From the NCBI GenBank assembly GCA_030741055.1, contig JASLWC010000005.1, positions 1 to 45,919 on the forward strand: 45,919 nucleotides of DNA, written 5' to 3'. The DNA is from Prochlorococcaceae cyanobacterium ETNP18_MAG_14 (GTDB lineage: Bacteria; Cyanobacteriota; Cyanobacteriia; PCC-6307; Cyanobiaceae). The notes below the pieces were generated by a model. That model was not told where the DNA came from. It did not search any database and was given only the letters and a program-made list of their open reading frames with translations. The first letter of the stretch is position 1. Each line of letters starts with the position of its first letter. The position numbers and the translations under genes were made by a program. Below are positions 36,990 to 40,055 of the stretch, piece by piece.

Positions 36990-37970
36990 TTAACTGCTGT
37001 AGCGCTTTAGCAACACCTGATCCCCCCAAACGGCAGCGGCTGCAAGTCCATCAGCAATGGTGGCAATCACCCTGTAGCAGAGCACCACTGCCAAAAGAGA
37101 CGCTTCCGGCACTTCAGAGCCCAGGCGCAGCAAGAGAGTGACTTCAAATACACCTAAACCGCCAGGGGCACCAGGAACCACTAAGCCCACTGTCCAGGCC
37201 AAAGCAAACCCTGCTAACCATTCCCCCGTCGACAAGCTGGGGCTCAAGGAAAACGCCATCACACAACACCAGAATCCACCAAAACGAAACGCCACGAAAA
37301 GCATCTCCATCGCCAGTGCTCTCCAGGGATAGTCATCTCGGCCACTGCCTAAGGCCTCTGGCGAGACAGCCCCAACCAGACCCGCATCAGCACGGTCGAG
37401 CTGCTTGGCTTTGGTCCGCTCCAAACGCTTGAGTAGAGGCTCGCGCCAACGAGGAACCAACAACATTGTTGGCAAGCAACAAGCGATAGCAAGGCCTGAC
37501 TGCCAACCGCCAAAAGGAACCCAAAGCAGAGCCGCCACAACCATCAACAAAGGCTCGAGCAACACAGATGCCAATGCTGGCCCTGCCCCCATATGGGGCC
37601 TTAGCACCCGCATTCGCTCAACAAAATGCCAAATCCCGCCAGGTAGATACTTGAGCAAATTGCTGCTTAAAAAAAGCGGCACCAGTGAAACTTCACTAGG
37701 ACGATGACCCAGCCAACCAACCAGCACCCGCCAAGCGAATGCATTTACTAGGAGACTGAACCAAGTAATGCCTACGCCAAGTAACAACCAGCAAAAGGAC
37801 AAGCCGGTCAGCGAAAGTTGACGCAATTGCTCCCCATGGCTGACCAAGGCCACCACCACAAAAGCAAGACTCGCAAGCGTGATCCAAAGCCGAAGACCAC
37901 CGGGTATAGATACCTTGCCCAACCAAAGCCTCAAGCTGCGTAAATAACCAAAAAAACCTGTCCTCACCAT
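36990..37970 (-). CDS. UPF0104/LPG-synthase-type multispan membrane protein
   Basis: A 326-residue protein with about eight membrane spans and the PF03706-type pattern, including SSNLLKYLPGGIWHF and PGAPGGLGVFEVTLL. Such proteins include the membrane part of lysylphosphatidylglycerol synthase and AglD-like proteins; without the soluble synthase domain the function is unknown. The ATG at 37970 overlaps the larC end by 7 bases, so it is the last gene of that leftward operon. Confidence 0.88.
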   Translation of the reverse strand: MVRTGFFGYLRSLRLWLGKVSIPGGLRLWITLASLAFVVVALVSHGEQLRQLSLTGLSFCWLLLGVGITWFSLLVNAFAWRVLVGWLGHRPSEVSLVPLFLSSNLLKYLPGGIWHFVERMRVLRPHMGAGPALASVLLEPLLMVVAALLWVPFGGWQSGLAIACCLPTMLLVPRWREPLLKRLERTKAKQLDRADAGLVGAVSPEALGSGRDDYPWRALAMEMLFVAFRFGGFWCCVMAFSLSPSLSTGEWLAGFALAWTVGLVVPGAPGGLGVFEVTLLLRLGSEVPEASLLAVVLCYRVIATIADGLAAAAVWGDQVLLKRYSS

Positions 37971-39196
37971 GACCAGTCTTCAGTTGCGGTGAAATCCTCA
38001 GAAGCTAAAAACACTTGCCGCCGCACCTCCTCCACTGAATGGCCCGTCTCAAGGCTGAGGCGCAGAAGATCATCGTGTTCAGGCTTAAGGCTCAATCCAC
38101 CACCTGGACGCCGCACCTGCTTGACACGTACCTCACCCCAGGGGGTGGAACAAGATCCACCGCGACGGGGCAATAACCAACGCCCGTGGGAATGCTCCCG
38201 CAGGCCCAGGGTTGTTCCCTGAGAAAACCACACCACGCGCAAGCCAGGGGCTTGATCAGGAGTCACTAATGCTTTCAAGCTCACACCCAAACGTCCTTTC
38301 TTCATCTGCAGCTGTTCAGAGACAACATCTAGAGCTCCAGCATTCCGTAATTGATCACTAAGAACCGCGAGATCCTCAGGGGTGGTGTCATCAAGCCAAG
38401 CTTCCTGCACAACCACCGGCTGCCATCTCAAGCCAGCCATCTCTTGATCTGATGGCTCCTTGGTTAAGCCATCGAGCTCACAGATTCGCAGCAGGTTGGG
38501 GCGATCAAGATTGCGATGCCCCAAACCCACACCAATCGCCTTGATATTTAGCGAGGATGGCTGGCCAAAGCGCTCTGCCAGCACAGCCATCAATGCAAGC
38601 CCCGTTGGTGTAGTGAGTTCACAAGCGGGAAGCTGATCGCCAACATCCAAGCCTATTTGATGTCGCCTGGCTAGCTCCAACACAGCCGGGACTGGAACCG
38701 GCAATAAGCCGTGAGCAGTTTCTATGTTGCCGCGTCCTGCCGGAGGGGCTGCACAGACAATCTGCTCGGGAGCCAAGTGCTCAACTGCCGCACAAACAGC
38801 CACCACATCCACCAGGGAATCAATCATGCCCACTTCATGGAAATGCACCTGATCAACGCTGCAACCATGAACCGCAGCCTCTGCTTCTGCTAAAGCCTTG
38901 AACACCGCAAGCACCTTGATCTGTAAAGGCTCCGGCCAATCAGCCTTGAGGATCAGCGCTCTGATGTCATGCCAACGCCGATGAGGAGGCTCAGTTTCGA
39001 GCCTTTCCACGGATACTTTCAATCCCCTCAGCCCAGCGCTGCAATCCTCCGCAACCGTAAGGGCATAAGCGTGCTCTAAACCAAGCACTGCAAGAGGAGC
39101 CTCAATCACTGCACGTGGCACCCCAAGATCCAACAATGCTGCTAAGAGCATGTCTCCAGCTAAACCCGTTGGGCAATCAACAAACAGGGTCGTCAT
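37964..39196 (-). CDS. larC: LarC-type nickel insertion protein
   Basis: LarC is a CTP-dependent nickel chelatase that finishes the nickel-pincer nucleotide cofactor of lactate racemase. The signature start FVDCPTGLAGDMLLAALLDLG and the VDQVHFHEVGMIDSLVDVV motif are clear, and GNIETAHGLLPVPVPA and ELTTPTGLAL follow. At 410 residues it is a single full-length frame, unlike the frameshift-produced protein of Lactobacillus. Neither LarA nor LarB is in this window. The start ATG overlaps the stop of the 43-residue gene by one base (TAATG). Confidence 0.93.
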   Translation of the reverse strand: MTTLFVDCPTGLAGDMLLAALLDLGVPRAVIEAPLAVLGLEHAYALTVAEDCSAGLRGLKVSVERLETEPPHRRWHDIRALILKADWPEPLQIKVLAVFKALAEAEAAVHGCSVDQVHFHEVGMIDSLVDVVAVCAAVEHLAPEQIVCAAPPAGRGNIETAHGLLPVPVPAVLELARRHQIGLDVGDQLPACELTTPTGLALMAVLAERFGQPSSLNIKAIGVGLGHRNLDRPNLLRICELDGLTKEPSDQEMAGLRWQPVVVQEAWLDDTTPEDLAVLSDQLRNAGALDVVSEQLQMKKGRLGVSLKALVTPDQAPGLRVVWFSQGTTLGLREHSHGRWLLPRRGGSCSTPWGEVRVKQVRRPGGGLSLKPEHDDLLRLSLETGHSVEEVRRQVFLASEDFTATEDWSW

Positions 39197-39327
39197 TAAC
39201 CCAGCGAGAAAACCTCAGGGAACTGGACACACCACCGAGCAGGAAAGCAGGCATAGGCAAGCCGAACGGTCAAAACAATTACACCTAAACCAATAAAGAT
39301 CAGCGCAACAGGCTCAGCCAACAACAT
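39196..39327 (-). CDS. 43-residue membrane peptide interlocked between two operon genes
   Basis: The ATG at 39327 overlaps the stop of the 242-residue gene (TGATG), and the TAA at 39198-39196 overlaps the ATG of larC (TAATG). The frame fills the gap exactly. The product starts MLLAEPVALIFIGLGVIVL, a span over about 5-25, followed by LAYACFPARWC and a short tail. I do not know the family. Interlocked codons on both sides are strong evidence that it is translated. It is too short for ordinary gene-finders with a 60-codon floor. Confidence 0.8.
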   Translation of the reverse strand: MLLAEPVALIFIGLGVIVLTVRLAYACFPARWCVQFPEVFSLG

Positions 39328-40055
39328 CAGCTATTTGACTTGGGATTGGGATTTGAATTGGTCTTGCTACCGCGACCATCTCGCCGAATCAGTGCACCAC
39401 GGCCTCCTCGCCCCTTGCCACCACGAGTTGGCATCGGCCCCATAACTTCATATCCCTCAAGATGAAGCTGCTGAGCGCGTCGTCGCACATCCAAACTCAC
39501 AAAATGGCGCAGGTGAGTTAAGGGAACATCCCCTTTTATTTGCAACTTGAACGGCACTGGTCTATTGCCATCACCCCTGGGCTGCTGGCGAATTTTTAAG
39601 ACCAAGTCACCTGTTTCAGGTCTGGTGTAGATCAGTTCACCGCGAATTGAGAAGTAGTCGTCTCCCTCGGGAAGCTGATCTTCAATTGTCAAGCTGTTTT
39701 CACACTGAGAATCTGACTCACTCTCATCAGACAATGCTTGTTTGAGGGTGCTGGGCTCCCATATTCCAGCGATCTGTAGATGAAGATGATCTTGCTCGCG
39801 GCAGCGAGGATAAACAACCCAAAGATGGGGCTGGTCCATTACCAGATGACGACGCATCAAGGTGAGCACACGTCCTAGGACTACCGCCTCAATCTCAACA
39901 CCTTCTGAATCCACCAAAAAACCTCTGGTGAACTGTTCAGGATCTTCTGGCCGATAGGTGCCTCTTACGACACCGATGGCCCTGTATTGCAACGGCTCGG
40001 TGACCGCAGGAATCGGATGGTCGCGCATCGAAAGAAAGGGCATCCACTGGCCCAT
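39327..40055 (-). CDS. Conserved cyanobacterial protein with a basic Gly/Arg tail, 242 aa
   Basis: Residues about 20-200 look like a mixed beta-rich soluble domain (YRAIGVVRGTYRPEDPEQF, RGELIYTRPETGDLVLKI, PFKLQIKGDV). The C-terminal 40 residues are Gly, Arg and Lys-rich (GGKGRGGRGALIRRDGRG) then Asn/Ser-rich, reminiscent of RNA-binding tails. I do not recognise a named family. It is the first gene of the leftward operon with the 43-residue peptide, larC and the UPF0104 gene. An ATG at residue 10 is an alternative start. Confidence 0.8.
   Translation of the reverse strand: MGQWMPFLSMRDHPIPAVTEPLQYRAIGVVRGTYRPEDPEQFTRGFLVDSEGVEIEAVVLGRVLTLMRRHLVMDQPHLWVVYPRCREQDHLHLQIAGIWEPSTLKQALSDESESDSQCENSLTIEDQLPEGDDYFSIRGELIYTRPETGDLVLKIRQQPRGDGNRPVPFKLQIKGDVPLTHLRHFVSLDVRRRAQQLHLEGYEVMGPMPTRGGKGRGGRGALIRRDGRGSKTNSNPNPKSNS

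Follow-up and report, generated by a model that had tools for sequence, protein, structure and literature searches.

The locus described here raises the question of why a reading frame of only 43 codons should be interlocked, by both its start and its stop, with the genes on either side of it in a cyanobacterial larC operon. The window, by which we mean the whole 45,919-nucleotide stretch of DNA that was analysed, is one contig of a 1.54-Mb genome that is 79% complete. A preliminary description of this DNA had read the frame as a membrane micro-gene filling the gap between a 242-residue gene and larC, joined to them by TGATG and TAATG respectively, and this placement is confirmed by our analysis (Table 1). 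What the frame is for, and where it came from, are less easily settled, and the answer that we favour differs from the one first proposed.

Table 1. Coordinates of the larC operon features in the window and the way in which they meet.
Feature	Coordinates	Strand	Remarks
43-codon frame	39196..39327	minus	ATG in TGATG, stop TAA in TAATG; proposed shrunken protease relic/translational bridge
Upstream gene, 242-aa protein	39327..40055	minus	TGA overlaps ATG of the 43-codon frame
larC, nickel-pincer cofactor biosynthesis protein	37964..39196	minus	ATG overlaps stop of the 43-codon frame
UPF0104/flippase-like membrane protein (PF03706)	36990..37970	minus	overlaps the end of larC by 7 nt
TGATG junction	39325..39329	minus	stop of the 242-aa gene and start of the 43-codon frame, one base in common
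TAATG junction	39194..39198	minus	stop of the 43-codon frame and start of larC, one base in common

The 242-aa gene, the 43-codon frame, larC and the PF03706 gene form a tightly overlapping chain. LarC was identified through PF01969 (E = 1.6e-117), with TIGR00299 and NF052512 also above cut-off, and the product of the short frame, MLLAEPVALIFIGLGVIVLTVRLAYACFPARWCVQFPEVFSLG (43 aa), has no family match in Pfam or NCBIfam. The 242-aa protein has no match in these databases either, yet it is conserved beside larC across Cyanobiaceae. A search for a promoter within the region found none, and a weak terminator-like match (39202-39187) spans the start of larC. A conserved RNA was considered for the region and rejected, the sole Rfam match being far below cut-off and lying outside the 43-codon frame. 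With regard to the pathway itself, most of the Cyanobacteria searched have LarB and LarE and nearly all have LarC, but LarA (PF09861) turned up in just 1 of 40 genomes, so an enzyme other than LarA may be the user of the nickel-pincer cofactor in these organisms.

Our comparison within the genus covered five species, namely the window genome, G001 (an uncultured MAG), G002 (AG-412-I05), G003 (which we take to be MIT9313, probably) and G004 (MIT 0701). All five possess an open frame spanning the gap before larC, of 43 codons in the window, 61 in G001 and 56 in G002-G004, and the differences in length amount to whole codons. The upstream junction in the genus is TGATG or TGAATG. Downstream, the other four species have CAATGA, in which the stop is TGA and the overlap ATGA; the last codon of the window frame is TAA where theirs is CAA, which gives TAATG. 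As would be expected of a translationally coupled chain, the overlap is -1 at both ends in the window, and -1 or 0 upstream and +4 downstream in the other four species. In the next-branching lineage, represented by the outgroup G006, the frame is 11 codons long (MVVVEACLLGP) and its junctions are -1 and +4. The three-gene interlock is real and recurs in relatives, and as far as the arrangement of codons can indicate, it fits the stop-restart translation that had been suggested for it.

Conservation of the frame was proposed at the outset as a check on its coding status, and the outcome is mixed: the frame is intact throughout the genus, but its length and sequence vary and it is absent from most other Prochlorococcus. 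The conserved LAEPVAL-type start that had been anticipated was not seen, with only MLL..P held in common, and with one species. When 149 genomes were searched by tblastn, a single adjacent relative was found, in G001 at 47%, the remaining matches listed being weak with none coinciding with larC positions, and a scan of genome contigs found no further genus members. About 30 other Prochlorococcus-type genomes have a short gap too, and in these it is spanned only by three frames beginning with GTG or TTG (36, 17 and 11 codons). More generally, the spacers before larC in other Prochlorococcus are AT-rich, 48-206 nt long and nearly all without a full-span frame (L037-L060, L068-L073, L097, L099 and L100). 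A Shine-Dalgarno match before larC is rare in these spacers, and Shine-Dalgarno patterns did not separate bridged from unbridged genomes.

Our reading of the locus is shifted by what occupies the same slot elsewhere. In large-genome Cyanobiaceae, the position is taken by a gene encoding a membrane protein of 206-276 aa with a HEAGH motif and a hydrophobic N-terminus, which matches Peptidase_M41 weakly, below the Pfam cut-off. In those Cyanobiaceae examined that carry this protease gene, it is flanked by the 242-aa gene and larC, and in marine Synechococcus-type genomes it typically lies at -1 to the upstream stop and +4 to larC. Of 20 additional genomes 19 carry it; the start lies at -1 (TGATG) in at least 17 of them and the stop at +4 (ATGA) in most. 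The short frames share this slot and have near-identical overlapping junctions, those of the 61-codon frame in G001 and the 11-codon frame in G006 being the protease-gene pair of -1 and +4. Relatives of the protease occur across the class, and none of the five species of the genus gave a convincing match to it, which makes loss the likely direction of change. With a whole metalloprotease gene in this slot in Synechococcus, the interpretation moves from a new micro-gene to the likely remnant of a lost one. In a tree of larC, the short-frame lineages (the genus, then G006) fall between the protease-bearing Synechococcus and the remaining, frame-less Prochlorococcus, with support of 99/87 and 96/76 at the key forks. 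This order of states is what stepwise shrinkage predicts; the tree was rooted for drawing only, and loss is taken as the direction because the protease occurs widely. As a separate observation, the larC operon of Synechococcus includes the gene for this HEAGH membrane protein (L050, L053, L066, L067 and L135-L153) and Prochlorococcus-type genomes lack it, a loss which merits study in its own right.

If the frame encoded a conserved small membrane protein, one would expect to find purifying selection acting upon its residues. The frame in the window is 49% identical to that of G001, its closest species, where LarC is 89% identical for the same pair, and between the two sub-clades of the genus the figures are 36-39% for the frame and 82-85% for the neighbouring genes. 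A codon model fitted to the five species gave a dN/dS of 0.65 for the frame, which is indistinguishable from 1 (p = 0.12), against within-genus values of 0.175 for larC and 0.146 for the 242-aa gene. The dN/dS check put forward in the preliminary description does not, then, favour a protein, and the residues of the frame are weakly constrained, if at all.

A dN/dS of this kind would also suit a frame that is open by chance in spacer DNA left behind by the protease, with neither a coding nor a coupling function; stops are rarer in DNA that is as rich in T and poor in A as this, and related lineages have spacers of similar size with no frame. However, in neutral simulations, with branch lengths taken from larC or from the frame itself and whole-codon length changes not counted, all five frames stayed open in just 0.8-1.6% of runs (P ~0.01). 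This result, together with the whole-codon differences in length, indicates that the frame has probably been preserved as a frame. The earlier claim that the interlock goes beyond chance is upheld by the same simulation and by the full-span frames in 5 of 5 genus species and the 11-codon frame in G006. Both junctions also match those of the protease gene, in the outgroup as well as in the genus, and we regard a chance frame as quite improbable and as the least likely of the explanations considered here.

The main rival to the explanation that we favour is that the frame encodes a real small membrane protein which evolves fast in this Prochlorococcus clade, whether it is new or trimmed from the protease's anchor, and which has a membrane function of its own. 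Every version in the genus contains one hydrophobic stretch, the point estimate of dN/dS lies below 1, and the frame is open beyond chance expectation, all of which would accord with such a protein. The membrane span noted in the preliminary description is real by hydropathy, but for the window 43-mer it is only marginally beyond what its composition would give, with 159 of 3000 shuffles being as hydrophobic. The p value for a hydrophobic span beyond base composition is 0.03-0.28 by species, and base composition would largely explain the hydrophobicity in most of them. Furthermore, purifying selection on the residues is not significant, the length varies from 43 to 61 codons inside the genus, and the 11 codons that fill the slot in G006 are too short for a span. 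Taken together, these points lead us to consider a functional membrane protein unlikely, and the suggestion that it might tie a membrane anchor to LarC is unsupported.

Direct similarity between the short frames and the protease is harder to interpret. The HEXXH motif is absent from all short frames, and against broad-family protease profiles they score no better than shuffles. The 56-codon frames do show a colinear alignment to the protease's second hydrophobic region, pairing GLSSAWIVVAVGGALVTLSVDAATWQG with GVRSFAALAVYLGVVIAIGLAVDKLYWQS from the marine Synechococcus references. With one reference, this alignment has a p of ~0.001-0.02 by full shuffles and up to 0.10 by local shuffles; after taking the best of all references p is ~0.01, as it is against unrelated membrane segments, and a profile of the marine Synechococcus protease gives 0.01-0.04. 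The window's own 43-mer has no protease similarity beyond shuffles by profile. The C-termini LLEVFALGQ and VVVEACLLGP resemble LLEAAPRLGR in the protease, a reference that was picked after inspection of the data. The homology is suggestive and depends on the protease references used, and the argument for a relic is carried by position and junctions, to which this weak similarity may lend some support.

On balance, we think it somewhat probable that the 43-codon frame is a shrunken relic of the protease gene, maintained as an open frame that bridges translation to larC, and we infer both the descent of the frame from that gene and coupling as the reason for its upkeep. The ancestral arrangement would have been the 242-aa gene, an M41-like membrane metalloprotease gene and larC, in one tightly overlapping translational chain. 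As the protease was lost in the Prochlorococcus lineage, the interior of its gene, including HEAGH, may have been deleted stepwise with the reading frame preserved, such that the surviving ends would be the protease start fused to the upstream stop and the protease stop fused to the start of larC. The residual frame, whether of 61, 56, 43 or 11 codons, would then bring ribosomes from the upstream gene to the start codon of larC, where they would terminate and restart, and selection would act mainly on the open frame and its tight junctions rather than on the residues. The distance from the upstream stop to larC is 130-181 nt, and in experiments restart is nearly abolished once stop and start are separated by ~20 nt (PMC10666635), so a gap of this size with no frame in it should interrupt the chain. 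For ribosomes to get across, an open frame would be required, and it is for this reason that we favour a bridge. Counting against this, the frame is known in only five species and one outgroup, which are not independent, and other Prochlorococcus keep larC with no such frame, so a bridge is not essential.

If this explanation is correct, then the operon has adapted to the loss of a gene by giving up the protein and retaining its reading frame as a relay. This would also caution that, in compact genomes, not all conserved micro-frames need be functional small proteins. A natural comparison is offered by the series seen in Cyanobiaceae (206-276, 61, 56, 43 and 11 codons, and none). More tentatively, it is possible that streamlining can whittle the frame of a lost gene by whole codons to a pure ribosome relay, and that some of the tiny frames in streamlined operons are bridges and not proteins.

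A close counterpart of the short frame is the cyanobacterial M41-like HEAGH metalloprotease, with which it shares slot, strand and junctions and, weakly, the sequence of the second hydrophobic region; unlike the protease, it lacks HEAGH and the entire catalytic domain and has no significant family match. The protease itself can be likened to VIR3 of Arabidopsis, a plastid membrane metalloprotease with HEAGH and no ATPase domain (PMC9166295). The Synechococcus protein, compared with it by description only, also has HEAGH and no ATPase domain, and the likeness concerns the lost protease gene and not the micro-frame. As for the junctions, overlaps of -4 and -1 are the commonest arrangements in prokaryotes (PMC6728339, PMC10666635), and those at both ends of the short frame are the same -1 and -4 overlaps (ATGA, TGATG, TAATG) that are known from termination-reinitiation coupling. 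The interlock is ordinary as a mechanism and unusual as a residue of gene loss. Compared with known coupling, the middle cistron here is apparently a relic, which may serve chiefly to link its neighbours.
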